From Ascidia mentula (taxonomy: Eukaryota; Chordata; Ascidiacea; Phlebobranchia; Ascidiidae): a DNA stretch of 64,000 bases. The notes below the pieces were generated by a model. The model was not told the origin of the DNA, did no database searches, and saw nothing but the letters and a program-made list of their open reading frames with translations. Below, in pieces: positions 5,145-47,500 of this stretch (position 1 is the stretch's first letter; the number at the start of each line of letters is the position of its first letter). A program made the position numbers and the translations under genes. The stretch covers positions 11,731,001 to 11,795,000 of the forward strand of contig OX387202.1 of the NCBI GenBank assembly GCA_947561715.1. The letters run 5' to 3'.

Positions 5145-5670
5145 CCCCTACACAGTAACCAACACAGTAAGTAAATGTCGCAACGATAGTTTTGACGTTC
5201 CAGCACAAGGATGTGATGCGATGTTGATATTTGTGAAGGAAGCGTTGGCGAGCTAGTGTTACTGAATTGAATTGCATGTGCTTTTGTTGTACGCAGTCAA
5301 CTTATTCCTATTAGTCAACCTGATGTACAGAGCATAGGCATTTCAACTGCTAAGTTTTGGCGAGTTTAACACAGGCTCTGTGAAGTGTTGTTACATGCAA
5401 CTTTTGCTTTGTTTTGGGTACAGTATGTGCGAAGACTTTTGTTCCACAAGTTGCGCTTTTGCTTTCAATAGACCTCGAATTACCTTCAAATATGCTGCAT
5501 ATGATAAGCTGTTGTGTTAGCAGAATATAACACTAATTTGGATCATATTACATGCGCAAAAAGCCATAATAATCTGTAAGATCTGCAGACAGGTGATGAT
5601 ACCTTACAGGTCGAAACAGTGTGTACACCTGTTTGCAGCTGTCAATGATTTGGATCAGTTCAAACCAAGG
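5040..5670. repeat. Segmental duplication, copy A (first exon plus upstream flank of Shisa-like gene)
   Basis: About 500 bases align in direct orientation with 14475-14970 at high identity, for example in the cagtaagtaaatgtcgcaac segment and the following 300 bases. It spans the first exon of the Shisa-like gene and its upstream region. The main difference is a 102-bp insertion present only here (5546-5647). Confidence 0.85.
5546..5647 (+). mobile_element. 102-bp insertion carrying a hammerhead-ribozyme remnant, flanked by a 10-bp target duplication
   Basis: The insert lies between two copies of atttggatca (5536-5545 and 5648-5657). The paralogous segment has a single copy at 14947-14956, so this is a filled site against an empty site. 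Inside is a hammerhead-like order: GTGATGA (core CTGATGA with C3 changed to G), a stem II with ACCTTACAGGT, GAAA, a CAG...CTG stem III, then GCAGCT. The C3 change should inactivate it. Comparable motifs occur at 13.2, 17.0, 29.4, 30.1, 34.4, 46.9, 47.4 and 60.3 kb. Confidence 0.75.
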
Positions 5671-16770: not shown

Positions 16771-17037
16771 CGCAATGATTGTCAAGGTATGTCTCACGAT
16801 CGATGGTAAGATATAGCTTACATATTATTATTATTGCCACCACTTGGCCTATCTTATAATTATTGTGACACGGGGCCTGACGTCACTATTGGTTGAGCTT
16901 TGCTAGGCACCTTGTTTTGCTAGGCGTAAGGTTGCACCTAGTTTGGTGCCCAACGGATGACGGTGATTGTATAGTCACCACAAAGTGGAAGTCTTTGCTT
17001 GGCCGTTTGGACAGCAAAGTCGTCTGATAGTCACACC

Positions 17038-17090
17038 AGCTGCACTGATCAGACCTTTTAGGTCGAAACAGTGGCCATCTGTCTGCAGCT
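17038..17090 (+). ncRNA. Hammerhead ribozyme motif, near-complete (one core change)
   Basis: AGCTGCA, CTGATCA, GACCTTTTAGGTC (perfect stem II), GAAA, CAG...CTG (stem III), TC, TGCAGCT. Stem I pairs over seven bases without mismatch. The only invariant position lost is G8 (to C), the general acid/base position, which should abolish cleavage. It lies just beyond the 3' end of the second Shisa-like gene. Confidence 0.75.
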
Positions 17091-21442: not shown

Positions 21443-22624
21443 ATGTCATGCAGCAACTGCGTATACGGCGGATACGAGTACGTCTTCAGCGGCAACCTTC
21501 ACCAAACCTATTCAGAAGCCATTGCAGATTGCCAGAAGCAAGCCGGGGGCAGTTTAGCTGTAGCTGACATAGCTGCAGTCAAAAACAAACTTCTAAGTTG
21601 TTGTGCAACTAGCAATTCCTATTGGGTGAAATTACAGGCACAGCCAAGTTCCACCTGCAGCTGCTTTACAACTGTTACGCCCTACCTGATTGGTAAAAAA
21701 GACTGCAACTCTGCCTTAAGATACATCTGCCAAAAGCCACTGCTGGTACCAACTACAGTGAGCCAAAGTGACGTCACAAACACGGGGAATGCCGTTTTGC
21801 ACAAAGGATCGACCATTGTAGCAACGACACAAGCACAAAACGGTCCAAGCTCCTTAATATACGGACTTGTAGCACTAGGTGTTACTCTAATTTTGTGCGT
21901 GTTGTTGTTTTATTTGTACGCAAGAAAGCGTGGTTCAAAGAACGTCAGCAAGAAACAGGTTTTGGAGCCAGAATCCAATTCCCGGCCTTTACCACCAGCA
22001 GGTAATGATTTTGTGACAGTGCAAAGCATCCAGAAGGATCATCAAGATCCCGAATACTGCTAGTAAGTACAGGTTTTAGTTTTGTGGGTTACCGGTAATT
22101 GTTTACACTTGAAATGACATTTCGTCTACAGAAAACTAATAATTTTCCCGCCAAAAATCGCATTTACCTGCTGGATAGGAACATATGTGTTGTTGTGAAA
22201 GTAAAGAAACCATGGTTAGATTTTGTAAAGCTAGGTGACATTAACATAGACATTAAACGCGTAGGATCTATGCTCCTAAACATTTTTACCATGTTGCTTT
22301 AGAACTAACAACGACCTAAAACTTTTCAGCATTGCAAGTCAACGCGAAACCACTGCCAACCAAATATACGAAAACGCAAATGAAGCACCAAAGGATATAG
22401 ATGACCCAAACTCCCCTTATCAAGTCCCACTTTCAAGGTCCCAAGTCCCACTGCCACCTTTGCCAGGTACTGTGACGTCACCACCGCCAGCCGATTTGCA
22501 TCCAGTGTCAATCGAGGCTGACTGGATGGTCCCGGAAGTAATCTACCCTGATGACCCGCCTTCCCTGACCTACGTCGAACTGCATCACACGCCCAACGAA
22601 GAGGAATCCGCTCATGGGATTTAG
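21443..22624 (+). CDS. C-type-lectin-like type I receptor with ITIM-like cytoplasmic motif
   Basis: Two exons, 21443-22062 and 22330-22624 (GT/AG, phase 2), give 304 residues. Residues 6-97 look like a small C-type-lectin-like domain (CVYGGYEYVF, TYSEAIADCQ, YWVKL, CNSALRYICQK). A Thr/Ser-rich stalk follows, then a transmembrane helix (LIYGLVALGVTLILCVLLFYLY, about 140-160) with a basic stop-transfer sequence. The cytosolic tail holds several tyrosines: IYENA (a YxN, Grb2-type site), SPYQVP, and LTYVEL, which fits the ITIM consensus (I/V/L/S)xYxx(L/V/I). ITIMs recruit SH2 phosphatases in inhibitory immune receptors; a role here is inference. The chosen Met lacks a signal peptide, so a 5' exon is probably missing. 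The gene converges tail-to-tail on the SLC22-type gene (231 bases between stops). Confidence 0.75.
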
Positions 22625-22855
22625 TCAATGTTTACGGTTTTACAAAATACCAACTTTTTGCGACAAAGCGTATATTTGTCAAAAAATCAAAAACTGAAAA
22701 AAAAGCGAAAAAATAAGTCTTGACGAAAACTAGTTTTAGATCAGTAATGATTTTCGCCTTTGCTGATCAATTACATACGTCACTAATGTGTGCGATGTTT
22801 ACATTGCATAACAATATTTATAGATCCAAGATTACTTTGTTTTACATTCAGCAAG

Positions 22856-25800
22856 CTAAAACTGTTGTCCGACATTTTCATTTTCTTCTCCTTGTTTGTC
22901 CTTCTTTCCGCAACACAATTTCTTGAGGGGTCCTGGGTTAGCGGCAATAAATTCTTCGGCGTCCTTCATCGTCTCACACAACTGTGAGTGCTTCGTTTCC
23001 GGAAGAAAGAGGACCAATACTCCTGAAAAAAAAAACAGTTCCATTTTTTGCTGTAACTAATTTGCGTCAAGTACAAGCAAGTGAACCAATAATGATCAAT
23101 GAGCTTAAGACACAGTACACTGCTTCCACCTATCCGGTCTCATCAGCACAGCTTATGTCTGACGACTGACTTTTTTTCAGTGACACGCGCAAGTCAACAT
23201 TTTCTCATTTTTTACCATCCATTGATGTCATTATCTGTCAAGTAGTTTTCATCCCAACATGTCACTTTTCTACACAACTGCATAACACCTTCACAATAAG
23301 TCATTGTCTTACCAGCCACTAACGACATGATACCGAACAGAATGTAGGGTAGAGCGTAATGATAAATTTCCAACAACGCTATTGCTGGTGCAATTACAGC
23401 GCCAACACGTGCCATTGCGTTTCCGAAGTTGGTCGCCGTCGACCTGCGGCAAAAAAAAGAAAAAAATGGTTCCAGAAAAAATTTTGTTTTATACCCAGGT
23501 AACCTTCTTAATTTTTTTAACGTATTTTCGGGCTGTCATTTGTTTACCTGATCACGGTAGGATACAATTCCATTGTATACAGAAACAACGTGGATAATGG
23601 GATTATTGAGCATATCCTAGCAAGCATGAATAACGCCAGATGTACCTCTGTCATATCTGTAAAACGTAAAAAACTCAAATAATTGCTTGATTCGGGGAGC
23701 ATTTAGTTCCGTACGTTGTTTGATCCTATTAAGTGTCATTGAAGAAAACGACAAATGCACTGGTAGTCTATAACATTTTAAATCAAATGTTTCACGTCAC
23801 ACAGTTTTGAGAAACCCTGCCATGAAGTACATAATTTACTCACATACAGTACATACACCCACTTATATATAGCTAAAAAGGTTTTTAGCAAACTGTTCAT
23901 TTACCTGTAGGCACAAAGAAAGTAGGTACAGAGAAAACTGCCACCAGAATCAAGCAGGAAGATATGACAATTTGCCTTCCCAGCTTGTCACATGCACAGA
24001 TGGCCATCGGGTACATGGGAATTGCCATGGCGCCCATGATGAGAGTGCTAATGTAAATATTTCCACCAACGTTGGCTACATTGAGGGTCATACCGAAAAA
24101 TGCGCATGATGTAGCAAACCTTTAATAAAAACACAGGATGACAAACAATGACAACAAATGCTATGTGATGCATTTTTTACAGTTCAATGCTAAAAATAAA
24201 TTAATTTTATTCCCCTTTTCGTTGAATAATTCTGACCGTATTTAATGTTAATGTTGTATAATTAGATGTTATTGTGTGTTATGTATATGTAAAGGGTTAT
24301 ATAGCTGAGTGTATTGCACATAGTACTATATATGTATGTGTAAACGAAGTAAGATGTTGCTATACAGAAAAAGCTGTAGGAAACTTAGGTTATTATAAAC
24401 TGTCTCAGCATCATTTCAAAACATGCACATACCACACGTAGGATATGATGATAGTAGTTTTCGCCAGATGAGAAAAACGCAATGTGTCCGTCATTCCGAT
24501 ATCCGTCTGTTTTTCACGGACAACAACCGTGCTCGCATCCGATATATCTTCGAGGGTGTCAAGTGTTGCACAAAATCTGGAAGGTGTACTCGTTTTCTGT
24601 TATTGCATTGACTGGAACAGTGACAGGATATGTGTCTGATTTGATAAACACCTTGGTTTTACCTTGCAACAACTTCTGCAGATTGCTCGCTAATTTTGTT
24701 GAACTTCGCCATTTTTACAATAATCCGCGCTGCCTCAGCGTATCGACCGCGCGAAATCAGCCAACGCGGAGATTCGTCTTTAATCCTGTTCCCAAAAATG
24801 AAGTCAATAGCAAAAATATCGAAGTTTAAGATTGTGAACTTTAAAGAGCGTGAAACAAATATTGATTTGGTGCAATTCTCACTGACCTCTGGTAATAAAA
24901 CTCACCAAATACCAACAACTACTGGTATATAAGCCAGAGAAATAGCGAGTTGAAATGTTCTCCAATGTCGCGCAAGAAGTGCGAATAACACCATTATCAT
25001 CGTTCCCGATGATAAACCAAAGCTACTTATTTGCAACACCATCGCCCTCCGCGAGGGGATCGTCATTTCAGATCCTGTACAGAAGAGGTCGCCAAACTGG
25101 ATCATTTTTTAAATAGATTACTGCGTTTTTAAAATAGATGTTTAGATTATAAGTTGCATGTAAAGTTGGTCCAGTAAAACGTAGTCTGAATATGATTTTG
25201 CAACAATCTAATTTAACCTTGCACACAGTTCCCACGCTTACCTATGACGTAAATGTTTGCTGCAAAGAAACAGGAAAATCCAACCAACGCGTGTAGGACA
25301 GCATAAAGGGGCAGAGAATTTGTAAATGAAACTCCAACTCCTGTTATCGCGGTGGCAACGCACATAATTAGAGATACAAGACGACGTCCATACCTAAACG
25401 TTACGAAACTGAGTTCATTTTAAACCAAGTCAAATTTCAATTTCCATACAGCACTCCACCTTATATACCTGTCAGTTGCTTTCCCAATGACCAAGCCATT
25501 CAGCAATATTCCGAACATGAAGATGGACTGCAAAAGATACCTTATCCACACCCTTCCGCATACGAGATCAAATTGCGTCACCACTGATGACGTCACAGTT
25601 CCGTCGCTCGTATACACGTAATTATTGCATGGACGCGTCTGGAAGTTTATTAACATAACTAAAATGCTTCACTGCTACTTGCTTTTGGAGCACCTGAAAG
25701 TTAATAGGGCGGGAGCAGTTTGCCAAATAAGGACAAATTTCATTTTCGGCGGTTGGGGTTGTGATATCAAACCTAAAAGTAAAAACACAATTAATTCATG

Positions 25801-26214
25801 TTAATATGCCTTTGCGTAATAACTTACTGAATGCATTGTTCAAACTTTCCTTGCTTGTCCACAGGTACCAAATTCTCTCCAATACTAAAGTTGCAAGAAA
25901 CATTGCAAGCCTATACAACACAACGATAGACCCTAAAGCTTTAGACAAACATTTATACGGGGATTTGCCTCAACAGCACGAGGGTGAAATTTATTGCCCA
26001 GAATTGATTAAACACATGTAAGCAAATTTCACACTTTTACCGTCACCACAGCGGAACTCATTGTAACGTCACAGGAGTGAGGGACTGGGTAAGCAACGAA
26101 AATGGAACCGAAAAACTGAAGTCCCAACAGCGAAACGAGGAATGACGTCAAGATCATGTGAAAGATCTGATATCTACCCCAGCCTACTTGCAACAAAATA
26201 TCCCCGAATTCCAT
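22856..26214 (-). CDS. SLC22-type organic ion transporter A
   Basis: Predicted 571-residue 12-helix major facilitator carrier. Exons: 26214-26041, 25910-25828, 25772-25694, 25638-25469, 25393-25242, 25074-24906, 24785-24663, 24576-24433, 24119-23905, 23656-23548, 23443-23313, 23022-22856. All junctions are GT/AG and phases agree. SLC22 hallmarks: N-terminal LLxxVGxGRYQ, a large Cys-rich first extracellular loop with possible N-glycosylation (NVSC, NCS), FDLVCGR, GKATDRYGRR after helix 2, ESPRWLISRGR after helix 6, and LPETKHSQLCETMKDAE near the C-terminus. Such carriers move organic cations, zwitterions (carnitine) or anions across the plasma membrane; the substrate cannot be told. It is divergent from transporter B, with 1.7 kb between their starts. 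Confidence 0.92.
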
Positions 26215-27939
26215 TCAAGGTCTTTAAACTAAACCGAGCTACAAAACAGACTTATGTGAAAAGTTTTGGGTTAATTTGGTTTGTTAGTGTTAAAATTGCA
26301 ACGCTGGAGACGCCAACAAACTTTGAATGCCTGGGCACTAAACTTTGAAAACCTGGCACTAAACAGCTGATTTTCCGGCAATCTGACTTTTACCTAAAGA
26401 ATGTTAAGAAATCGTATGTTGTTTTAGATCCAACAACGTGCAATCAAGCTTTTTTGCGAACATATTTTAAGACATCACCTCTAAAATAGGTCAAACACAA
26501 GTGTATAAGTTGTAAACCCTTGATCTAAGGCTTTACCCAGGTCGAAAAGCAAATCTAGTCGCTCCGCTCACAGCGCCGTCACGGCTTCAGAATGAATGCC
26601 ATTTTCTTCATGGTCGTGCATTGCTGAGCACGGAATTGCGTAACTTTGCGTGCCTTTGCTTTTCGCCCAAATAGTTTTTCGCAGACTGTGCCGCTCTCAA
26701 CATTTTGCTGTCTTTTTGTGCGATTGTACGTTAACTTAACAAGGGTTAGCTCGATTTTGAAATCAAAATCAGGTAAACCAGACTGTTGACGGTAAAATTA
26801 CCAATATATCCCATATGCTGATTTAAATCAAATTAGTCTAGAACAAGATGATGCTTTTTACTTCATATAGGATTGTGTAGCAAACTTTAAATGTACAATT
26901 TTCTACATCCTATAATTTCGAAACAGCAAAATGGAAGCCCAATGAACCAAATCACACTCCATTGGATAAGGAAAAACCTTCTTGGTCTAAAAATATCATA
27001 CCAAATTTTTGCGCAACCAAAATATTGAATGTAATAAAACCAATGTCTACGTTGTAAAATGAAATCATTGCATACATAATATTGTGTTCCAAAAGTGCTA
27101 TATCTTGCAAAGCATTTTTTGCTGAGGTGCGTTTCACACACTGTTGAGCACTTCTTCTCTGCACACTTTTACCCACACAGTGCGTTGACAGATTACCGCA
27201 AAGCAACGAGGTAAACACGTTTGCCACTGCATTCGTCTAAGTTCGTAACCCCTGCAGTTTGCAAAAGCTTGTTTTGAAGAGTGAGTTCAAAACAGGACGT
27301 TTGGATTCATTTACATTGAAAGCAATTGTAAATTGTAATCAAACCTTTAGAGCATATGAGATATTGTACAAGGGTGAATGGCAGGAAAGGTAGTTTTACG
27401 ACTACAGGTTTTTTTGAACTATATCATTAATTCAATCACAAGTTTTTGCGTTGGTTTTTCGGTATATAGCAATACACGATATTAAGGCGTTGCTGAGCGG
27501 CTTACAACTTTGCAAGCCAATAGTTGTTACTTGAGGAAAAACGTGACTAATTTGAACTCAGATGAAGTAAAATTTTATGAAGAAAGTGCCTAGTTGCGAT
27601 AGTAATGAAGACCAGTGACTGTTGCCAGTATTATGCGATCATATATTATTATGCATTACTGAATCGCAGACGTTACAATGGTTCATACAAGAATCTTTCA
27701 ACGCGTACATTTAATGTTCGAAAAACTAAAACATACGTTGGTGCACTTTTTGTAATTGGACTTACTGTTCTATTTTAAGTGCCAATATTTCATTAAGCGA
27801 CAATTCGCACACACAGTAATGTTTCGAAACCAACGTAAACCCAAACGATCGCAAATGGTAAAAGGAAACTCTAAAATGACTAAATTGCAGAGATGTTTTA
27901 TTTTGAAGGTGGTTGAGTATTGTTGACATTAGGAACATC
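26215..27939. other. Intergenic region between divergent SLC22-type genes
   Basis: No supported gene. A minus-strand open region at 26887-27227 has no recognisable domain. Regulatory DNA for both flanking transporters is expected here, but no specific site is identified. Confidence 0.45.
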
Positions 27940-30900
27940 ATGACTTTCGACGACTTGTTGCCACACATTGGTTGGGGAAGATACCAGATCACAAATATGC
28001 TTTTTGCCATGTCGTTGATGGGATTGGCGGCAATGCACGTTCTCTCGTCCATTTTCATCGCATACCCAATGCCCTACAAGTGTAAGCAGTTGGCTGCAGC
28101 AGAAAAGGTGCGCGTTAGGTGGAATATGGGATAAATGTGTTCAACATGTTTATGTGCATTGCTTCGGTTTTGTTCCAACATAGGAAAGTTTACCGCATAA
28201 AATGGAATGCAACTTTTTTGTTTCACTTTTATTAAAACATCGCATTATTATTTGAACATTTGTAATACCTCAAGTAATTGACAAACAATAATAGTTTAGT
28301 TTTGAAAAACTTTTGTATGTTTAGTTGTGTGGAGAAAATTGGAACGACACCTCCAGTAATCTATTCGTGCCCTCAGACGGAAAGGGGAATACATTGAATC
28401 AATGCAAACGGTTAGAGTTGTTTTCGCTTCAAAAGCAAACTTAATCTATTGATGCTTCGTGCATTTTATATTCCCGCACTGGAAATTTACAACCAACGAG
28501 TTGATTTTCGCATTTAAAGTGACAAATTTTCTTTTACCGGGATAGTTTTTTGTCTGTTTTAGTTACATACTTGACATAAACAACACAACTGACATCTGTC
28601 TGTGGATAAGTAACTCTACCACAATGGAAACTTCTGGTCGACAGGTTCGTATTACTGAATAACATTTTAATGTATGCTTGTTTGCGAACATGACAAAAAT
28701 TCTGCGTGACTCCAACTAATTTCTAGATTTCCAAATAAATTGTTTTTCGTATAAACATTAGGAAAACACTTAATATTGCATCAAACCCTCTCTGTCTTTA
28801 CCCGACCCCTTAAAGGACGTTTGAAAGTGGGGCATGTCGCTTGTCGAATTAGACTAAATCCATCAACGTTCGGCACTTTTGCCAATATTTGTTCTGCAGA
28901 CCGAAGCATGCCATGAACACACGTTCGCGAGCGACGGTACGGTTTCTACATCAATAGTCGAGGATTTTGACATGGTTTGCGAGAGGTCTTGGTACAAGTA
29001 CTTGTTGCAGTCGGTCTTCATGCTGGGGGTGTTTTTCGCTGGATTGACTTTCGGAAAGGCATCGGACCGGTGGGTTGGAACTGTGGAAATTTTGCCGATT
29101 TTAATTTTGAGGAATGCAGGTTTTACCTAATTCAGTTTACACGCATGTTGATATATTTTCGCTTTGAACGGAAGATGCACATTTTATTACTGACGCTGCC
29201 AAGCATAATGTTCAGTCAATTCAAAAACACTTGTTCTGCCAGAAGTGCTTTAAAAATGACCAAACCGCTTCTTTACTATGCATTTACTATATGCGCTCCA
29301 CAGTGGTTCGTCGTCTCTGTTGTTCGGTACCCAGCATAGGGTACCCTGCAGATCGACGTTGACCGCAAGGTACCACAAAGTGGATACTAGTGTGCCTGCT
29401 AGTGTAAAGGCTAGCACAGTGCCACTCAACAGCTGCACTGATGAGACCTTACAGGTCGAAACAGTGCGTGTACACACCCTGTCTGCAACTTTGCATTTAA
29501 ACCCTATTTTACCATTTACCCAAGAATTTCAAAACAAACCAGAAAAGTACCTTTGTTATACCTGAAAAACAAATTTATTTTTTTCTTGGAATACTTTCTG
29601 ACGCATGACTATGAATTCCACATTACCCCTCCCACAATGTAAGTTTGATGTTTCACTTATTTCAACAACCAGAAAAAATTAGGGAATGGTGATTCCCCGT
29701 AAGGAAATCGCCTGACTCCCGGATCCAATGAGCACTGTGCTCGTAAACGATATAGTATAGCTGACAATGATTAATTTCTTTTGATTCGATAAGGTTTTTT
29801 TTTCACTTTTAACTCTGAAATACACCAATTTTGTCGCGCAGTGTTGGAAGAAGAGTGGTGGTGATTGTGATGACCGTTGGTGCCTTGGTTGTTTCGATTG
29901 CAATTGCTTTCGTGAAGTCGTTTGTTGCTTACGCCATACTGAGAGGATTGGTCGGGTTTTTCTGCTTCCATGCACCCACAGTTTACGTGCTTGGTGAGCA
30001 AAACGGGGCCTTTGTAAATACTAGTAATAACATTGGACTCACGATTTTTGGTGTTAGTAACTGTTTAGGAGTTGTGCAATTTTAATATCTCAAAATACCC
30101 GCTTTAAGTGAGTTTGCAAACTACACTGATGAGACGTAATGGACAGAAACAGTGGCCCGGTCTGCGTCTCATTTAAAACGTACATAAAAAGGAATGAACA
30201 TGTTATTGACTCCACAGCTTAGTTTTTGAATGCTTCTGTGGCTCAACAGTTGCAGTAAATAATTTTAATGTAGGTTTTTAAATCCAAATAAAATTCAAAA
30301 GAAACACGATAAATAGTTTGCAGCAAAGCGTGCTGTTGAAAGACTAAACAAACCCTTAACAAAAAGGTTCATGGTTTAACGAAAATGCAAACAATATTTT
30401 CATGGTTTCCAGCTGCCGAAACAGTTATCCCCAATCGCCGTGCAGTGGTAGTCGAAATCGGAAGCTTCGGTTTTTCCATCGGAAACATGATCCTAGTGCC
30501 ATTTGCTTACTTGGCGAGGGACTGGGTGACTTTGCAGCTTGCTCTCACCGCATGTTACACGCTCTGTATCGCCATCTGGTGGTAAGAAGTAACTGATATT
30601 GTTGCGATTACTTTAATTGAAAAAAAGGAGGAAAGTATTCATCAGGAATGTCCGTGTATTTTGCTATGGCGTATCCATTAAGTATATTTTGGCAAGCGCA
30701 TAAATCACCATTACATGAGATCTGTGTCGTATCTGGAATACTGATGTTTTTACGAGCGTTCAAATGTAGTATTTGAAACTTTCAGGTTTCTAAATGAATC
30801 CCCACGCTGGCTTATTTCTCGTGGAAGGAAATCTGAAGGGGCCGAAGCTTTGAGGAAAATTGTCAAAACAAACAAATGCAACGAGGAGGCGAAAGCCCTC

Positions 30901-32661
30901 GTAAACAGGTCTACCATTTTCTTATTAGGTAGGATTTGTAGAAATTCTAATCTATTTTCTTTAGGTTTTGTGAAAAGCTGACCGGTGCGTCCGCTTCGTC
31001 AGGTGAAGGTTTACTTGATAAAAATCACAAGGAGGCGACAAAGAGCAAGGTTAAGAATCTTGGTATGATGGACACTTTAAGAGACCCAGAACTACGAATA
31101 GCGACCATCGTACTGACTTACACATGGTAATTAAGGAACATGGGATGACACAACTCTATGAGATATCCTAAACTTTAGTTATTTTTGCTTCGAAGGGGAA
31201 AGTTTCCTAACACAAGGCAACTTTTTTTTCAGGTTCGCCACATCTTGTGCTTTCTACGGTCTCACCTTAAACGTAGCCAACTTGGGCGGAAACATTTACG
31301 TAACCACTCTGATTATGAGCACAATGGCAATTCCTGCATATCCAATAGCCATTTACATGTGCAACAGGGTCGGGCGAAGATTCGTAATCTCGATTAGTTT
31401 CATTCTTGTCGGAGTCTTTTGCGTTCCGATGTATTTCATCCCAGTTGGTAAATATTTTTTTGGTGTTAAAAATCTGTGTTTTATGAATTCTAGGCGATAT
31501 TTAGAATAGGATATCTGTTTATGCATCTTATTCTGTTTGTTTTTTTCCTTCAGTACAAAGTTATTAGGCACACAGATTATTTTTGATTTATTTAATTGTG
31601 TGTATTTTCTGTTCTTACATAGGTGAAACTGAAGACCGTGCCAGGTCTATTAGCAATATACCAGTTACGACATGCAATATTTTATATGAACGGTTTCTTG
31701 GGAATTGCGTATTATGGGTTGTCACGGAATAAAGTGTATTAAAGACAACCCGGATAACCGCGGAAAACCTTTACCATTTATTTCAGAATACCAAATCCTA
31801 CAAGTCACGATGTTTCTATTCGGGAGAATGTTTTCAATGATACCTTTCTCCACTATGTTCCTGTTAACGGTTGAAATTTACCCGACTGTGATAAGGTCAA
31901 GAACGTTTGTAGTGCCGTGTAACATGTTTTTCTTGCTACCAAACACAATAACCGCACGTTTAAACGTTACAAGTACAAGTAATTATTAATTAAATGAACT
32001 TCCTTTAAATTAGGTCCACTGCTGTCAACTACGGAAATTCTCTTGCCAGAGTTGGTGCGGTTGTCGCTCCCGCTATTGCCATGACAGAATCCATCTATCC
32101 CACCTTACCCAACATTCTGTTTGGGCTTATCACCATTCTAGCAGGTAGCTAAGCCCAAATTTTCTTTTCGTACAGACATGTAATGTCGCGTTGAAGTATA
32201 CTTAAACTTTAAAAATCCAAAAATTTTTGTTTAACTCTCGTTTGTTCAAAGCATGTCAAATTGATACAAGTCTACTAATACTTAACTTCACCACTTTTGG
32301 AAGCTCGCCAGGGAAATTACTTTCATACTTTCGAGATTTGATCACAAGTTGGCCGCGTGTTAACAAAATTTGATACACGCCTGTTCGTTGCAAACACAAC
32401 TCCACCATCTAGACAACTAGCGTTTGTGAGCGAAACCAACGTGAATAGTTTATTTTGAGGAGAAAATCCTTTAACAACTACATGCAAGTCTTCCCAGATC
32501 GCACCTCCGTTGATTGTTGATCTTTTTTTACAGGTATCTTGATCCTCTGTTTGCCGGAAACTCGCAAAGCAAAAATGAGTGAAACCATAGAAGATGCCAG
32601 TTCCTACATGAGGGAAAACCCCGGACCTTTGCTACGGTTGTGCAGAAAATCTGAAGCTTAA
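27940..32661 (+). CDS. SLC22-type organic ion transporter B
   Basis: Predicted 564 residues from 12 exons: 27940-28107, 28325-28410, 28563-28644, 28900-29069, 29842-29993, 30413-30581, 30786-30908, 30965-31126, 31233-31447, 31787-31895, 32014-32144, 32534-32661. Phases (0,2,0,2,1,2,2,2,1,2,1) are identical to those of A and C. Features: DDLLPHIGWGRYQ start, glycosylatable loop (NDTS, NNTT, NST) with Cys residues, FDMVCERSW, GKASDRVGRR across exons 4/5, NESPRWLISRGR, GGNIYVTTLIM, LPETRKAKMSETIEDA. It differs from A mainly in the first loop and the tail. Introns 4 and 5 hold hammerhead motifs (29431-29490 and 30113-30163). Confidence 0.93.
29300..29500 (+). mobile_element. Hammerhead-bearing repeat in intron 4 of transporter B
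   Basis: About 200 bases, from ggttcgtcgtctctgttgtt onward, recur at 34230-34424 with few differences, ending in each case with the hammerhead motif. The shared unit is much longer than the ribozyme itself, as expected for a small non-autonomous hammerhead retroelement. Confidence 0.75.
29431..29490 (+). ncRNA. Type I hammerhead ribozyme, core intact
   Basis: AGCTGCA (29431-29437), CTGATGA (29438-29444), GACCTTACAGGTC forming a 5-bp stem II (29445-29457), GAAA (29458-29461), stem III ACAG (29461-29464) with CTGT (29479-29482), cleavage-site C (29483), then TGCAACT pairing back with AGCTGCA (one mismatch in seven). All invariant residues (C3 to A9, G12-A14, the A15.1-U16.1 pair, H17 = C) are present. 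The predicted cut falls after 29483. It lies on the sense strand of the transporter pre-mRNA. Confidence 0.85.
30113..30163 (+). ncRNA. Hammerhead ribozyme remnant in intron 5 of transporter B
   Basis: CTGATGA (30126-30132) is kept, followed by GACGTAATGGACA (stem II largely unpaired), GAAA, CAGTGG and TCTGCG. The loss of stem II and III pairing suggests inactivity. Confidence 0.55.
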
Positions 32662-34157: not shown

Positions 34158-34424
34158 AGCTCATCAGTGCAGCTGTTGAGTGGCACTGTGCTATAGTTTT
34201 TACACTAGCAGGCGCACTAGTCTACACTTTGTGGTACCTTTCGGCGGTTCGTCGTCTCTGTTGTTAGGTACTCAGTATAGGGTACCCTGCAGATCGACGT
34301 TGACCGAAAGGTACCACAAAGTGGAGACTAATGTGCCTGCTAGTGTAAAAGCTAGCACATTGCCACTGAACAGCTGCACTGATGAGACCTTACTGGTCAA
34401 AACAGTGCGTGTACACACCCTGTT
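34158..34424. mobile_element. Palindromic hammerhead element, truncated at the satellite array
   Basis: A central block (ggttcgtcgtctctgttgtt) is flanked by inverted arms, each ending in CAGCTGCACTGATGAG: minus strand near 34162-34177, plus strand at 34371-34386. The plus arm continues GACCTTACTGGTC then AAAA instead of GAAA (G12 lost), then the stem III region, and breaks off at CTGTT where the satellite's terminal sequence begins (34426). Confidence 0.7.
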
Positions 34425-34425
34425 A

Positions 34426-37400
34426 TGAAACCTCTTGTACGTTAGTTTATGAAATTCTTTGCGTTTAACGTAAACTGTGGTTTTTGTTGACAGTTGCAAG
34501 TGTCTAAGTTAAGAAATGCATTACGTTTAACGTAAACTCTGGTTTTTGTTGGCAGTTGCAAATGTCTAAGTTAAGAAATGCATTGCGTTTAACGTGGACT
34601 GTGGTTTTTGTTGGCAGTTGCAAGTGTCTACGTTAAGAAATGCATTGCGTTTAACGTAAACTCTGGTTTTTGTTGGCAGTTGCAAGTGTCTGAGTTAAGA
34701 AATGCATTGCGTTTAACGTAAACTCTGGTTTTTGTTGACAGTTGCAAGTGTCTAAGTTAAGAAATGCATTACGTTTAACGTAAACTCTGGTTTTTGTTGG
34801 CAGTTGCAAATGTCTAAGTTAAGAAATGCATTGCGTTTAACGTGGACTGTGGTTTTGTTGGCAGTTGCAAGTGTCTACGTTAAGAAATGCATTGCGTTTA
34901 ACGTAAACTGTGGTTTTTGTTGGCAGTTGCAAGTGTCTGAGTTAAGAAATGCATTGCGTTTAACGTAAACTCTGGTTTTTGTTGGCAGTTGCAAATGTCT
35001 AAGTTAAGAAATGCATTGCGTTTAACGTGGACTGTGGTTTTTGTTGGCAGTTGCAAATGTCTAAGTTAAGAAATGCATTGCGTTTAACGTAAACTCTGGT
35101 TTTTGTTGACAGTTGCAAGTGTCTAAGTTAAGAAATGCATTGCGTTTAACGTAAACTCTGGTTTTTGTTGGCGGTTGCAAATGTCTAAGTTAAGAAATGC
35201 ATTGCGTTTAACGTAAACTCTGGTTTTTGTTGGCGGTTGCAAATGTCTAAGTTAAGAAATGCATTGCGTTTAACGTAAACTCTGGTTTTTGTTGGCGGTT
35301 GCAAATGTCTAAGTTAAGAAATGCATTGCGTTTAACGTAAACTCTGGTTTTTGTTGACAGTTGCAAGGGTCTAAGTTAAGAAATGCATTGCGTTTAACGT
35401 AAACTCTGGTTTTTGTTGGCAGTTGCAAGTGTCTGAGTTAAGAAATGCATTGCGTTTAACGTAAACTGTGGTTTTTGTTGGCAGTTGCAAGTGTCTAGGT
35501 TAAGAAATGCATTGCGTTTAACGTAAACTGTGGTTTTTGTTGACAGTTGCAAGTGTCTAAGTTAGGAAATGCATTGCGTTTAACGTAAACTGTGGTTTTT
35601 GTTGACAGTTGCAAGTGTCTAGGTTAAGAAATGCATTGCGTTTAACGTAAACTGTGGTTTTTGTTGGCAGTTGCAAGTGTCTAGGTTAAGAAATGCATTG
35701 CGTTTAACGTAAACTGTGGTTTTTGTTGACAGTTGCAAGTGTCTAAGTTAAGAAATGCATTGCGTTTAACGTAAACTGTGGTTTTTGTTGACGGTTGCAA
35801 GTGTCTAAGTTAAGAAATGCATTGCGTTTAACGTAAACTGTGGTTTTTGTTGACGGTTGCAAGGGTCTAAGTTAAGAAATGCATTTCGTTTAACGTAAAC
35901 TGTGGTTTTTGTTGACAGTTGCAAGTGTCTAAGTTAAGAAATGCATTGCGTTTAACGTAAACTGTGGTTTTTGTTGACAGTTGCAAGTGTCTAAGTTAAG
36001 AAATGCATTTCGTTTAACGTAAACTGTGGTTTTTGTTGACAGTTGCAAGTGTCTAAGTTAAGAAATGCATTGCGTTTAACGTAAACTGTGGTTTTTGTTG
36101 ACAGTTGCAAGTGTCTAAGTTAAGAAATGCATTGCGTTTAACGTAAACTGTGGTTTTTGTTGACAGTTGCAAGGGTCTAAGTTAAGAAATGCATTTCGTT
36201 TAACGTAAACTGTGGTTTTTGTTGACAGTTGCAAGGGTCTAAGTTAAGAAATGCATTGCGTTTAACGTAAACTGTGGTTTTTGTTGACAGTTGCAAGTGT
36301 CTAGGTTAAGAAATGCATTGCGTTTAACGTAAACTCTGGTTTTTGTTGACAGTTGCAAGTGTCTAGGTTAAGAAATGCATTGCGTTTAACGTAAACTCTG
36401 GTTTTTGTTGACAGTTGCAAGTGTCTAGGTTAAGAAATGCATTGCGTTTAACGTAAACTCTGGTTTTTGTTGACAGTTGCAAGTGTCTAGGTTAAGAAAT
36501 GCATTGCGTTTAACGTAAACTCTGGTTTTTGTTGACAGTTGCAAGTGTCTAGGTTAAGAAATGCATTGCGTTTAACGTAAACTCTGGTTTTTGTTGGCAG
36601 TTGCAAGTGTCTAAGTTAAGAAATGCATTGCGTTTAACGTAAACTCTGGTTTTTGTTGGCAGTTGCAAGTGTCTAGGTTAAGAAATGCATTGCGTTTAAC
36701 GTAAACTCTGGTTTTTGTTGACAGTTGCAAGTGTCTAGGTTAAGAAATGCATTGCGTTTAACGTAAACTCTGGTTTTTGTTGGCAGTTGCAAGTGTCTAA
36801 GTTAAGAAATGCATTGCGTTTAACGTAAACTCTGGTTTTTGTTGGCAGTTGCAAGTGTCTAGGTTAAGAAATGCATTGCGTTTAACGTAAACTCTGGTTT
36901 TTGTTGGCAGTTGCAAGTGTCTAAGTTAAGAAATGCATTGCGTTTAACGTAAACTCTGGTTTTTGTTGGCAGTTGCAAGTGTCTAGGTTAAGAAATGCAT
37001 TGCGTTTAACGTAAACTCTGGTTTTTGTTGACAGTTGCAAGTGTCTAGGTTAAGAAATGCATTGCGTTTAACGTAAACTCTGGTTTTTGTTGACAGTTGC
37101 AAGTGTCTAGGTTAAGAAATGCATTGCGTTTAACGTAAACTCTGGTTTTTGTTGACAGTTGCAAGTGTCTAGGTTAAGAAATGCATTGCGTTTAACGTAA
37201 ACTCTGGTTTTTGTTGGCAGTTGCAAGTGTCTAGGTTAAGAAATGCATTGCGTTTAACGTAAACTCTGGTTTTTGTTGACAGTTGCAAGTGTCTAGGTTA
37301 AGAAATGCATTGCGTTTAACGTAAACTCTGGTTTTTGTTGACAGTTGCAAGTGTCTAGGTTAAGAAATGCATTGCGTTTAACGTAAACTCTGGTTTTTGT

Positions 37401-40400
37401 TGACAGTTGCAAGTGTCTAGGTTAAGAAATGCATTGCGTTTAACGTAAACTCTGGTTTTTGTTGACAGTTGCAAGTGTCTAGGTTAAGAAATGCATTGCG
37501 TTTAACGTAAACTCTGGTTTTTGTTGACAGTTGCAAGTGTCTAGGTTAAGAAATGCATTGCGTTTAACGTAAACTCTGGTTTTTGTTGACAGTTGCAAGT
37601 GTCTAGGTTAAGAAATGCATTGCGTTTAACGTAAACTCTGGTTTTTGTTGACAGTTGCAAGTGTCTAGGTTAAGAAATGCATTGCGTTTAACGTAAACTC
37701 TGGTTTTTGTTGACAGTTGCAAGTGTCTAGGTTAAGAAATGCATTGCGTTTAACGTAAACTCTGGTTTTTGTTGACAGTTGCAAGTGTCTAGGTTAAGAA
37801 ATGCATTGCGTTTAACGTAAACTCTGGTTTTTGTTGACAGTTGCAAGTGTCTAGGTTAAGAAATGCATTGCGTTTAACGTAAACTCTGGTTTTTGTTGAC
37901 AGTTGCAAGTGTCTAGGTTAAGAAATGCATTGCGTTTAACGTAAACTCTGGTTTTTGTTGACAGTTGCAAGTGTCTAGGTTAAGAAATGCATTGCGTTTA
38001 ACGTAAACTCTGGTTTTTGTTGACAGTTGCAAGTGTCTAGGTTAAGAAATGCATTGCGTTTAACGTAAACTCTGGTTTTTGTTGGCAGTTGCAAGTGTCT
38101 AAGTTAAGAAATGCATTGCGTTTAACGTAAACTCTGGTTTTTGTTGGCAGTTGCAAATGTCTAAGTTAAGAAATGCATTGGGTTTAACGTAAACTCATTG
38201 CGTTTTACGTAAACTGTGGTTTTCGTTGACAGTTGCAAGTGTCTAAGTTAAGAAATGCATTGCGTTTAACGTAAACTCTGGTTTTTGTTGACAGTTGCAA
38301 GTGTCTAAATTAAGAAATGCATTGCGTTTAACGTAAACTTTGGTTTTTGTTGACAGTTGCAAGTGTCTAAGTTAAGAAATGCATTGGGTTTAACGTAAAC
38401 TCATTGCGTTTTACGTAAACTTTGGTTTTTGTTGACAGTTGCAAGTGTCTAAGTTAAGAAATGCATTGCGTTTAACGTAAACTCTGGTTTTTGTTGACAG
38501 TTGCAAGTGTCTAAGTTAAGAAATGCATTGCGTTTAACGTAAACTCTGGTTTTTGTTGGCAGTTGCAAATGTCTAAGTTAAGAAATGCATTGGGTTTAAC
38601 GTAAACTCATTGCGTTTTACGTAAACTTTGGTTTTTGTTGACAGTTGCAAGTGGCTAAGTTAAGAAATGCATTGCGTTTAACGTAAACTCTGGTTTTTGT
38701 TGACAGTTGCAAGTGTCTAAGTTAAGAAATGCATTGCGTTTAACGTAAACTTTGGTTTTTGTTGACGGTTGCAAGTGTCTAAGTTAAGAAATGCATTGCG
38801 TTTAACGTAAACTCTGGTTTTTGTTGACAGTTGCAAGTGTCTAAGTTAAGAAATGCATTGCGTTTAACGTAAACTGTCTAAGTTAAGAAATGCATTGCGT
38901 TTAACGTAAACTCTGGTTTTGGTTGACAGTTGCAAGGGTCTAAGTTAAGAAATGCATTGCGTTTAACGTAAACTCTGGTTTTTGTTGACAGTTGCAAGTG
39001 TCTAAGTTAAGAAATGCATTGCGTTTAACGTAAACTGTCTAAGTTAAGAAATGCATTGCGTTTAACGTAAACTCTGGTTTTGGTTGACAGTTGCAAGGGT
39101 CTAAGTTAAGAAATGCATTGCGTTTAACGTAAACTCTGGTTTTTGTTGACAGTTGCAAGTGTCTAAGTTAAGAAATGCATTGCGTTTAACGCAAACTGTC
39201 TAAGTTAAGAAATGCATTGCGTTTAACGTAAACTCTGGTTTTGGTTGACAGTTGCAAGGGTCTAAGTTAAGAAATGCATTGCGTTTAACGTAAACTCTGG
39301 TTTTGGTTGACAGTTGCAAGGGTCTAAGTTAAGAAATGCATTTCGTTTAACGTAAACTCTGGTTTTTGTTGGCAGTTGCAAATGTCTAAGTTAAGAAATG
39401 CATTGGGTTTAACGTAAACTCATTGCGTTTTACGTAAACTGTGGTTTTCGTTGACAGTTGCAAGTGTCTAAGTTAAGAAATACATTGCGTTTAACGTAAA
39501 CTCTGGTTTTTGTTGGCAGTTGCAAATGTCTAAGTTAAGAAATGCATTGGGTTTAACGTAAACTCATTGCGTTTTACGTAAACTGTGGTTTTCGTTGACA
39601 ATTGCAAGTGTCTAAGTTAAGAAATGCATTGCGTTTAACGTAAACTCTGGTTTTTGTTGACAGTTGCAAGTGTCTAAGTTAAGAAATGCATTGCGTTTAA
39701 CGTAAACTCTGGTTTTTGTTGACGGTTGCAAGTGTCTAAGTTAAGAAATGCATTGCGTTTAACGTAAACTCTGGTTTTTGTTGACAGTTGCAAGGGTCTA
39801 AGTTAAGAAATGCATTGCGTTTAACGTAAACTGTCTAAGTTAAGAAATGCATTGCGTTTAACGTAAACTGTCTAAGTTAAGAAATGCATTGCGTTTAACG
39901 TAAACTCTGGTTTTGGTTGTCGGTTGCAAGTGTCTAAGTTAAGAAATGCATTGCGTTTAACGTAAACTCTGGTTTTTGTTGACAGTTGCAAGGGTCTAAG
40001 TTAAGAAATGCATTGCGTTTAACGTAAACTGTCTAAGTTAAGAAATGCATTGCGTTTTTCGTAAACTGTGGTTTTTGTTGACAGTTGCAAGTGTCTAAGT
40101 TAAGAAATGCATTGCGTTTAACGTAAACTCTGGTTTTTGTTGGCAGTTGCAAATGTCTAAGTTAAGAAATGCATTGCGTTTAACGTAAACTCTGGTTTTT
40201 GTTGACAGTTGCAAGGGTCTAAGTTAAGAAATGCATTGCGTTTAACGTAAACTCTGGTTTTGGTTGACAGTTGCAAGGGTCTAAGTTAAGAAATGCATTG
40301 CGTTTAACGTAAACTCTGGTTTTGGTTGACAGTTGCAAGGGTCTAAGTTAAGAAATGCATTGCGTTTAACGTAAACTGTCTAAGTTAAGAAATGCATTGC

Positions 40401-43751: not shown

Positions 43752-44267
43752 ATAAGGTTCACAGGCTTCGCAGCCAAGGCATTGCAGCCAAGCTGGATCA
43801 GCCACTTTTCCCGACAAGTCGGAGCGAGATCTGAAAAATCAAGCTCCCGGTGAGGTTTAAACTTATGACCCTGGGCTAACCAGGCCCAACGCTCTACCCA
43901 TGAGCTACAGGAGCTCAGTGGCTTCACGGGGTTTATTGTGGCCAAGGTACACTGGTGCGCAAGCGCACAACTTGTCAGGCGACATTCACAAGCGTAGAGG
44001 ATCTCCACCACCGTAATCAGACAACGCAGAAGTAATGCCATGCTTGCGCATAGCAAGGCGGGATCGCCCCACTGCGCAGGCCCTTTATATTTTTATATCC
44101 AAATTGTCGGGAAAAGTGGCTGATCCAGCTTGGCTGCAATGCCTTGGCTGCGAAGCCTGTGAACGTTATGATAAGAATATTAGAGCTGTGATCGCCAAAT
44201 ATAAAGGGCCTGCGCAGTGGGGCGATCCTGCCTTGCTATGCGTAAGCATGGTATTACTTCTGCGTTA
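43752..44267. mobile_element. tRNA-derived SINE in fold-back form, 11-bp target duplication
   Basis: About 516 bases lie between two copies of ttgttttcttc (43741-43751 and 44268-44278); the paralogous segment near 33340 lacks the insertion. The minus strand at about 43843-43914 folds as a tRNA: GCTCCTG acceptor arm, TAGCTCATGGGTAGAGC (D arm, A box), TGGGC-CTGGTTA-GCCCA anticodon arm (GGT, Thr-like), and AGTTTAAACCT (B box) in a weakened T arm. The SINE body (gtggctgatccagcttggct) recurs inverted at about 44105-44165, and arms 44028-44092 / 44190-44265 are reverse complements, making a large hairpin. Confidence 0.8.
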
Positions 44268-44513: not shown

Positions 44514-47500
44514 ATGACTTTCGACGACTTGTTGCCCCACATTGGTTGGGGAAGATACCAGATCACAAACATGATCTTGACCATGACGATGTTAATGTTG
44601 ATAGCAATGCAAGTCCTCTCGCCTATTTTCATTGCATACCCCATGCCCTACAAGTGTAAGCAGCTGGCTGAAGCAGAGAAGGTGCGTTCGTTGGTTTTGT
44701 TTAATCACCAGTACGTCTACACTAAGAACACTTGTCGATTTGCAAAGAAACTATGTTTTTCATTTGTCCGTTGCTAAAAAGATAAAAAAAAAAAAAAAAA
44801 AAAAAATGGGAAAAATAGTGGCATTTTTTTTAGTTTTGTGGAGAGAAGTGGAATGATACATCCAGTGGACTTGTAGTGCCGATAAACGCAAAGGGCAATG
44901 CACCAAATCAATGCAAGAGGCGAGAGTTGCTTTTTTTTCGAAAACGATTTACCAATAGAATGCAAACAGTGTTTTTATGTCTGAACTTGAAAGTTTAGTG
45001 TAACCGTAATTCAACCTTTAATTTAAACAACATAAGTTTCGAGCAAATATGTTGTTACCCGTGGACATTACTGTATAATATAATACCAGAAATATTTATG
45101 AAATGTATGGATCTTCCACTGACAACTGTATTTGGCGTTGGGAACGTCTTGTGACAAGCGATTTGTAAGACTATCCTAGGTTATTGCAAAATCGCCTGAG
45201 ATATCTAATTGTTAGAGCATCATCAGAATTCTTATTCAAATTTTGCCATAACTTTCACGTTAGTCCTAAAATCACAGCTGTATAATAATATCGTCAACCT
45301 GTAAGCGTATTTGATCTTTCAGATATAACATTAGTGATGACAAGAGGAACACAACTGACTTCTGTCTGGGGATAAGTAATGGAACTGCAACGGTAATTTA
45401 TGACTTGGATAAACGTATTGCTTCTTCCATGTATTTGTTGGCACACCCTGTATTGTTTTCCATATGTTATAACATACTTTTACTTAGCTCCAATGTGACA
45501 AATTTTGTTGCGACCCCATAAATACATCCTTGCAGTTATCAGCCAAAAATGTGACATATCATTTTTGTTGTTGCCCCAAATTAGCGAAGCATGTTGTGTT
45601 TATCGTGCAGACCGAAGCATGCCATGAACACACGTTCGGGAGCGAAGGTACGGTTGCTACATCAATAGTCGAGGATTTTGACATGGTTTGCGAGAGGTCT
45701 TGGTACAAGTACTTGTTGCAGTCGGTCTTTATGCTGGGGGTGTTTTTCGCTGGACTGACTTTCGGTAAAGCGTCTGACAGGTTCGTTGAGCTCATTACAT
45801 GCCTGTTAGGGCGGGGTTTCTTAACTCGTCTGTGGTCCCTCCGACCAATTTTTTGACTCTGTGGACCCCCAACATCGATTATTTAGACCTTTTTGGGGGG
45901 AGAAACTATTTATTGTCTCTTAAAGTGTAATTGTTGGAACCGCTGCTGACCCACAGTTGAGAAATCCTGTGTTGGGGTTCGTGTGGCAACTCTACCTCCT
46001 TTACACAAATTGTTTTCCATCTGTTTAATCAGAGAATACTGTTTCGGTATTCTATGGTTAAACAATAGATTTACTTTCTTTTATCCGGATTTCACTATGT
46101 TGCTGTAGTGTCAATCGATTATCAATTGATGTTATGTATGGTAGTCGCCCACGCGTTTTTGTTAAATATGTCGTTAAACTAAAATCACAGTCTTGTGTTT
46201 TCGCGCAAAAATGGGTTTGATTTAAAGAAACACAAAAACAACATTAAGTTTTTTCGTATCGCAGTGTGGGAAGGAAGAACGTGGTGATTGTGATGACCGT
46301 TGGTGCCTTGGTTGTTTCGATGGCAATTGCTTTCGTGAAATCGTTTGTTGCTTACGCCATACTGAGAGGATTGGTCGGGTTTTTCTGCTTTCACGTGCCA
46401 ACGATCTACGTGCTTGGTGAGTAGAGCAGATGCAAAACATCCAGTGGCGTAGCCGGGCGATATTTTGGTGGTGGTCCAATACTTTCAAGCGACCAAATAA
46501 GGCTTGCTGGCAGGCATTCAAGGACTAAATCTAACGTTTTTTATCTGGCAGCTTCAGAATCAACAGTCTCTCACCGTCGTGCCATGGTTATCCAAGTTGG
46601 TACCTTCGGGTTTTCTTTGGGAACCATCCTCTTGGTGCCGTTTGCTTATTTGGCGAGGAACTGGGTTACTCTGCAGTTTGCTCTCACCGCAAGTTACACG
46701 TTCTGTATTGTCGTTTGGTGGTAAGATGTTTGTTTCAATAAAACTAGTATGGTTGATGCAGAGGATTTTCAGTAATCTAGAACGAAAACTCTTTTCATAA
46801 GTCATCTGCAGACAGTGCAGCGCACTTCGGTTTGGTGACGGCAAGATCGTTCTCAATCAACAGCTGCACTGTTGTGACCTAATAGGTCGAAGCAGCGTTC
46901 ACTGCCTAAAGCTCACTAATCATAAAGTCCCATTTGCTTGTTCAATTTTTTAAATAATTTCTTAATTTAAGAATGTGTGGAGTCATCGCGTTGTTAAATT
47001 GGTGGAGATGTAATCGTACATATAAGCGACATACCTAAGCTAAATTTACCATCTTTCGTAACGTTTAGGTACGTTTAAATGCATCAGTTTATAGGATGTA
47101 AAAACAGGTTGTTTGACGAGTCTCCCCGTTGGCTGATTTCACGTGGGAACGAAAAGGAAGGGTTCAAAATCTTGAAAAAAATCGTCAAAACAAACAAATG
47201 CAGCGGGGAAGTGGAAGCTCTCGTTAACAGGTTTACAAGTTTGTGGGTTGTCTCATCATAAGGATGTGCTTTATTTTTGTTTCGCAAATATAGATTTCTA
47301 TGGACTTAAAGTAAATTTATAGTTTACAAAATTATGTTTTTATTGAGCTATGCAGACAGTTTCGACCCATCAGGTCTCATCAGTGCAGCAGTTGACGTCG
47401 ATCCAGTTAACCGACAAGACTATCTTCAGCCACCAGCTGCACTGATGAGACTTGATACGTCGAAATAGTGTGCATAACTGTATGCAGTTCACCGATCATG

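Follow-up and report, generated by a model that had tools for sequence, protein, structure and literature searches.

The SLC22-type gene and its intronic hammerhead

The window examined here, i.e. the whole stretch of 64,000 nucleotides of Ascidia mentula DNA, carries on its plus strand, at about 27907 to 32661, an SLC22-type gene whose exons were read by eye from the open reading frames. When the exon translations were joined by hand they matched TIGR00898 with an E-value of 1e-101 (341 bits, which is under the curated cut-off of 551) and SLC22 structures with an E-value of 1.6e-61, single exons giving at most a weak match to MFS_1. Among the matches listed for this protein the closest homologue is from Ciona intestinalis (43% identity), and the remaining 119 proteins are 26-35% identical to it. 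Judging from open reading frames inspected by eye, a paralogous SLC22-type gene apparently adjoins at 22000-26200 on the minus strand, in the opposite orientation.

A preliminary description of this DNA had placed an intact type I hammerhead ribozyme in an intron of the gene, on the sense strand. The location is borne out by the TIGR00898 and SLC22 structure matches: the hammerhead, at 29432-29489 on the plus strand, falls between an exon ending in GKASDR (about 29069) and one starting with VGRR (about 29842), with splice sites placed by eye. The core is also as described, since all invariant residues were found in order by inspection of the plus strand at 29438-29483. The 5' strand of stem I (29432-29437) is followed by the core CTGATGA (29438-29444), a paired stem II (29445-29448 with 29454-29457), GAA (29458-29460) and a paired stem III (29461-29464 with 29479-29482), and C17 at 29483 provides the UC cleavage site that had been claimed, with a predicted cut at 29483/29484. 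An invariant core, a UH cleavage site, a closed stem III and an open stem I identify the motif as type I.

Whether the ribozyme is intact is another matter. Three paired stems had been claimed, and stems II and III do pair, but stem I consists of four pairs followed by a C.A mismatch between 29433 and 29488 that is absent from exact family copies (GCTGCA/TGCAGC in the family, TGCAAC in the second strand of the window copy). As a result of this mismatch the minimum-energy fold of the window copy is no longer a hammerhead, the core pairing with stem III instead; that of the exact family sequence is a hammerhead. At 37 C the predicted probability of a competent fold is 1.5e-5 for the window copy vs 0.12 for the exact family sequence, i.e. 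about 8,000-fold lower, and at 18 C it is 3.5e-7 vs 0.026, although even the exact sequence of this first family reaches only 0.03-0.12. These predictions speak against calling the motif intact, and the copy's own ribozyme is probably inactive.

As for a covariance-model check, an Rfam search of the window (families RF00163, RF00008 and RF03152, with the gathering score as criterion) gave no hammerhead reaching that score, and in a search of 301 bases the window copy obtained 26.5 of 56.3 bits for RAGATH-1-hammerhead and 24.9 of 48.5 bits for Hammerhead_3. An intact family copy (L026) also falls below threshold, with 28.3 of 56.3 and 24.9 of 48.5 bits, so that the Rfam hammerhead models do not cover this family, and we dropped the threshold as a verdict on the motif. 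At an E-value of 0.1, Rfam searches of five complete loci, including two that have intact copies, were likewise without a match, and a whole-genome search with RF00163 found no match, but its controls were equally silent.

A high-copy retrozyme family

The hammerhead is part of a longer repeat. A 27-base hammerhead core pattern, allowing up to 3 mismatches, has 3369 matches in the genome (195.8 Mb in 79 contigs were searched) and the reversed pattern has none, while the exact 58-base full ribozyme occurs 146 times. When the stretch 29340-29500 was used as a query, at least 48 matches were obtained at an E-value of 0.001 with the best 40 of 1791 first-look candidates scored. The repeat unit is 291 bp long with a GC content of 47.8%, and is found in tandem at several loci, with up to 7.7 units per arm. 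A type I hammerhead in a many-copy tandem repeat of 150-450 bp with less than 50% GC is what characterizes non-LTR retrozymes, and the unit is too short for the reverse transcriptase and GIY-YIG reading frame of an autonomous Penelope-like element (PLE).

The segment 29289-29495 (plus strand) is a 5'-truncated copy of this high-copy non-coding hammerhead repeat, a metazoan non-LTR retrozyme, running from about unit position 100 through 291 to 12 and 96% identical to the unit of locus M32. It has been inserted into the SLC22 intron, leaving an 8-bp target-site duplication, TGCATTTA, at 29279-29286 and 29492-29499 on the plus strand, the first bases of the 3' copy overlapping the element end TTTGCA. 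The copy consists of a plus arm alone, with a 3' end of the short class defined below. A circularisable RNA, which had been suggested as a product of this hammerhead, fits the retrozyme family but is not specific to the window copy.

Other hammerhead-related loci in the window comprise five that are matched by the retrozyme unit and one core-like remnant. One insert has a left arm at 34160-34244 (minus strand) that ends inside the hammerhead and a right arm at 34246-34423 (plus strand) that ends at the cleavage site, the two lying head-to-head. An older, diverged head-to-head pair consists of a hammerhead with a minimal stem III at 47356-47395 (minus strand) and another hammerhead at 47431-47470 (plus strand). 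Degenerate remnants of the hammerhead block are found on the plus strand at 46854-46895 and at 5594-5653, the latter with a minus-strand piece at 5558-5593, and a block at 17034-17073 (plus strand), whose core reads CTGATCA, belongs to a second family. The core-like remnant, at 30126-30160 (plus strand, end approximate) in a later intron of the SLC22-type gene, was seen by its core pattern alone and was not recovered by the search with the retrozyme unit.

Two further features of the window were recorded. About 24 bases past the end of the retrozyme arm 34246-34423 a minisatellite starts (34447-40030) with a unit of 62 bp, 60.5 copies of which, with 97% matches, make up 34447-38196. A tRNA match lies on the minus strand at 43842-43914, with 37.1 bits, above the gathering score.

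Architecture of the inserts

We mapped 44 separate inserts of the first family, which derive from 41 merged loci (M00-M40) minus three segmental copies, plus six inserts from a junction-free query. Segmental copies of M19 (M20-M22) and of L089 (L090-L091) were omitted before counting, as were the duplicate entries L074 (the window copy, already counted as M35) and L076-L086 (already counted as M32); the window insert 34160-34423, whose arm ends do not fit the end classes, and the older copies are outside the 44. M00-M40 were found through matches spanning the ribozyme-cleavage junction and are biased toward arms that cross it, the six inserts free of this bias being L075, L087, L088, L089, L092 and L093.

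In 25 of the 44 inserts two arms are arranged head-to-head (minus then plus), 19 are single-armed and none is tail-to-tail. Taking the first base past the cleavage site as unit position 1, the 3' ends of 65 of the 69 arms fall at unit positions 1-60, and 8 of the 9 arms of the six junction-free inserts likewise end there. By comparison, 5' ends are scattered across the unit, with 12/69 at 1-60. The 3' ends form two classes about 25 nt apart, a short one at 1-19 (25 arms) and a long one at 27-53 (40 arms), with none at 20-26; the four outlying ends are at 74, 86, 123 and 175. Of 21 pairs in which both ends could be classified, 17 combine a short with a long end and four are long/long. Shuffling the ends gave a mean of 10.4 mixed pairs, and 316 of 100000 shuffles attained 17. 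The boundary separating the two classes was chosen after inspection of the histogram.

Direct repeats no shorter than 8 bp, i.e. over the 4 bp that retrozyme target-site duplications exceed, flank 23 of the 41 loci, compared with 4.3% of mismatched flanks, and are missing from the other 18. The search for them extended up to 30 bases from each mapped end, and a few of these repeats are not directly adjacent to the element; the 22 that were kept are 77% AT. Head-to-head arms, an optional short tail on one arm and a short target-site duplication, which together are the signature of PLE insertion, are found in these retrozymes as well, with exceptions.

A proposed single template per insert

The arms of one insert resemble each other more than they do the arms of other inserts: their divergence is 1.96%, compared with 2.71% after shuffling, a difference reached in 14 of 20000 permutations. 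Sister arms have 8 rare variants in common in 22 pairs (1.1 expected), and at 11 common variant sites they agree in 90 of 95 insert-sites (64.8 expected), while tandem units agree in 64 of 65 (44.0 expected); in both concordance counts the sites within an insert are not independent. The 12 M32 units that align over more than 100 positions show zero divergence. This pattern fits a single RNA that would have been read repeatedly, and such an RNA could be either circular or a homogeneous multimer. That arms share a template emerges from the pooled data, with a weak signal in single inserts: insert by insert, the nearest arm is often not the sister arm (e.g. M00, M10, M17 and M39), and it is because this nearest-relative test was indecisive that the pooled permutation and variant-concordance tests were used.

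A second retrozyme family

The remnant at 17034 belongs to a second family, with a 285-bp unit of 47.4% GC, for which 40 of 1657 first-look candidates were scored. The two units have in common a 40-bp hammerhead block (92.5% identical), a 14-bp motif, CACCACAAAGTGGA, and 13 junction bases, and outside these three parts a comparison of the two gave no match below an E-value of 0.1. The CACCACAAAGTGGA motif is hairpin-like and occupies nearly the same position in both units (180-193 in the first, 179-192 in the second); it might serve as a promoter or be bound by the copying enzyme. Even with an intact core, the second-family hammerhead has a minimum-energy fold that is not a hammerhead.

Eleven second-family loci were mapped, eight of them two-armed. 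Since L095-L101 were picked for having a neighbouring arm and L108 (plus arm 86% identical) came from a separate search, these loci are uninformative on the rate of head-to-head layout. In all eight two-armed inserts an end of the short class (0-23) is paired with one of the long class (43-56), or in seven of eight under the first-family cut at 22, because one end of L096 is at 23; the figure of 25/29 for the two families pooled is an approximation. One arm (L095) ends at the cleavage site, as the right arm of the window insert 34160-34423 does. Target-site repeats of 10-15 bp were seen by eye at seven of the eight. Older diverged hammerhead copies (L104-L113 and the window pair at 47356-47470) have other stem II and stem III sequences, and these differing stems suggest that there may have been several waves of retrozymes in this genome.

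Penelope-like elements and a model of insertion

Which enzyme spreads animal retrozymes is the question for the field that the inserts bear on, PLEs having been named as candidates (PMC7229834). In the accessible part of that paper they are called strong candidate mobilisers, given type I hammerheads in both, tandem arrangement and coexistence, and a 2020 review that favours PLEs states, in the text available, that no conserved repeat motif reveals the machinery (PMC7761336). PLE insertions are described as having inverted arms, mostly head-to-head, one of which may carry a tail of 31 bp, and a 9-bp target-site duplication (PMC3846280). According to the available account of a purified anole PLE, the enzyme cuts and extends both strands, uses two neighbouring internal start sites on the RNA, with no strand difference seen in where it starts, favours AT-rich DNA and can dispense with ribozyme cleavage in vitro (PMC11167929).

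The Ascidia mentula genome has 121 GIY-YIG matches among the matches listed, not every one of which need be a PLE. Neighbouring GIY-YIG matches no more than 5 kb apart are arranged minus-plus in 17 cases, plus-plus in five, minus-minus in one and plus-minus in none, and hammerhead cores no more than 500 bp apart on contig C1 (67 places) show the same layouts in six, two, three and no cases, respectively. One PLE locus (L071-L073, C67:6132401-6148400) encodes RVT_1 and GIY-YIG domains in an 891-residue open frame and carries a minimal hammerhead. Its 2870-bp units lie head-to-head, with opposite arms 100% identical over 2952 bp and a 10-bp flanking repeat sharing 2-3 bases with the element ends, and its two outer ends lie at +61 and +102, respectively, after the ribozyme cleavage point. 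With identical opposite arms and long open frames this is a seemingly young array. At a second PLE (L063), inspected by eye, a tail some tens of bases long also distinguishes the two arms. Start-site distances differ, being about +15 and +40 in the retrozyme and +61 and +102 in the PLE.

We also considered that the retrozyme might be a deleted PLE and rejected this, since none of the PLE loci L061-L073 showed a detectable match to its unit. The same result implies that the link between retrozymes and PLEs rests on architecture.

From this architecture the elements, which are tunicate non-LTR retrozymes, are most likely copied by Penelope-like machinery, and the following sequence of events can be proposed. 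Tandem retrozyme units would be transcribed, each hammerhead cutting the RNA at unit position 291/1, and a host ligase would close the resulting 291-nt circles. The GIY-YIG/reverse transcriptase enzyme of a PLE would then cut both target strands, 8-15 bp apart, and each free 3' end would prime reverse transcription inside the RNA, at about +1-19 or +27-53 past the cleavage point, usually with one start site per target strand. Both cDNAs would pass the closed ribozyme junction, sometimes for several rounds, before being joined in the middle of the insert, yielding head-to-head arms and tandem units. Taken as a whole, a truncated retrozyme copy made from a circular template and inserted by a PLE enzyme via two start sites is the best explanation of the window locus, and we consider it probable. 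A broader proposal, which in our view stands about even, is that animal retrozymes are parasites of PLEs: a PLE dimer would open both strands and two reverse transcriptases, about 25 nt apart, would travel round one 291-nt circle, producing head-to-head rolling-circle arrays whose paired 3' classes are the footprint.

If this proposal is true, the footprint would identify which enzyme mobilises non-LTR retrozymes. Paired short and long ends in head-to-head inserts give a positive signature, which two retrozyme families and one PLE show within a single genome and which can be sought in any retrozyme-bearing genome. The paired-end footprint in head-to-head retrozyme inserts is new here, no description of it for retrozymes having been found in the accessible portion of the literature searched.

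Alternative explanations

Amniote intronic hammerheads are of type I, and the preliminary description had compared the window motif with vertebrate examples and proposed an effect on transporter mRNA processing. A hammerhead retained in the SLC22 intron for splicing or mRNA processing, as in amniotes, would account for the complete core residues, the sense orientation and the intronic position, but a conserved host hammerhead would be expected in low copy, and this one is among 3369 core matches, in a copy flanked by its own target duplication and with the stem I mismatch that lowers the predicted competent fold so strongly. On these grounds we reject a host-regulatory role, which appears very improbable. 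The parallel with the conserved, few-copy vertebrate hammerheads fails as well, because the motif sits in a mobile element with that many core matches and with further hammerhead loci in the same window. No host function is indicated and no effect on SLC22 is expected; for the gene, a worn transposon copy within an intron is of little consequence. Head-to-head structures might also have formed once the element was in place, if it was duplicated locally or gave rise to a palindrome, and segmental copies do occur (M19-M22 and L089-L091). The end positions contradict this, since arms mostly have unlike 3' end classes and unlike 5' break points, and the target duplication, where found, flanks the whole double structure; we regard such an origin as extremely improbable.

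Two explanations concern the copying itself. Twin priming is known to yield inverted 5' pieces, and the inverted arms could be its ordinary product if a LINE-type enzyme copied the retrozymes, target duplications of 8-15 bp and 5' truncation being LINE-like too. In twin priming, though, the start of the second cDNA is an arbitrary internal position on a different part of the RNA, whereas nearly all arms here start within one 53-nt stretch, their templates overlap and their ends form two paired classes. This reading is therefore disfavoured, and we think it unlikely. Harder to set aside, if still doubtful, is that PLE machinery is at work on an uncleaved tandem transcript, with the hammerhead dispensable for insertion. 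Homogeneous arrays such as M32 could be transcribed whole, unprocessed RNA was used by the anole PLE in vitro (PMC11167929, in part), and multimeric retrozyme RNA is known in axolotl from the available text of PMC7229834. The same text reports retrozyme RNAs of coral and mussel as monomer-sized circles and lines, and in an unsystematic inspection we noticed no arm running upstream of the unit into sequence that different loci share.

Comparison with known systems

Among known elements the closest are the metazoan non-LTR retrozymes, which, as far as the accessible text of PMC7229834 describes them, likewise have type I hammerheads, tandem units of about 300 bp with less than 50% GC, high copy numbers, no coding capacity, target-site duplications longer than 4 bp and PLEs in the same genome. 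The present elements differ in that their host is a tunicate and that they are known here from genomic DNA alone. Tunicates (as tunicate, ascidian or Ciona) go unmentioned in the 2020 retrozyme paper, and in its available text the word "inverted" is absent and neither head-to-head arms nor paired 3' classes are described (PMC7229834). In another tunicate, Didemnum vexillum, the accessible part of the genome paper has a single mention of 9 loci of a type I Rfam hammerhead family (PMC8704543).

Plant LTR retrozymes are also non-autonomous and give rise to a small hammerhead-processed RNA, but they have type III hammerheads, LTRs, PBS/PPT and 4-bp target-site duplications (PMC7229834, in part). 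Amniote intronic hammerheads share the intronic location (PMC7229834, in part) with the window motif, which lies on the sense strand, yet they are few and highly conserved whereas the window motif is a copy of a high-copy transposon. PLEs with a pLTR, a tail and inverted arms resemble the retrozymes in their tandem and head-to-head layout, an optional tail of 30-40 bp at one end, short target-site duplications, AT-rich targets and a hammerhead near the start site, according to the accessible parts of PMC3846280 and PMC11167929. They differ from them in that the retrozyme is devoid of a reverse transcriptase/endonuclease reading frame and of detectable similarity to the PLE loci examined, and in that its hammerhead stem III is 4 bp long whereas that of the PLE is minimal.
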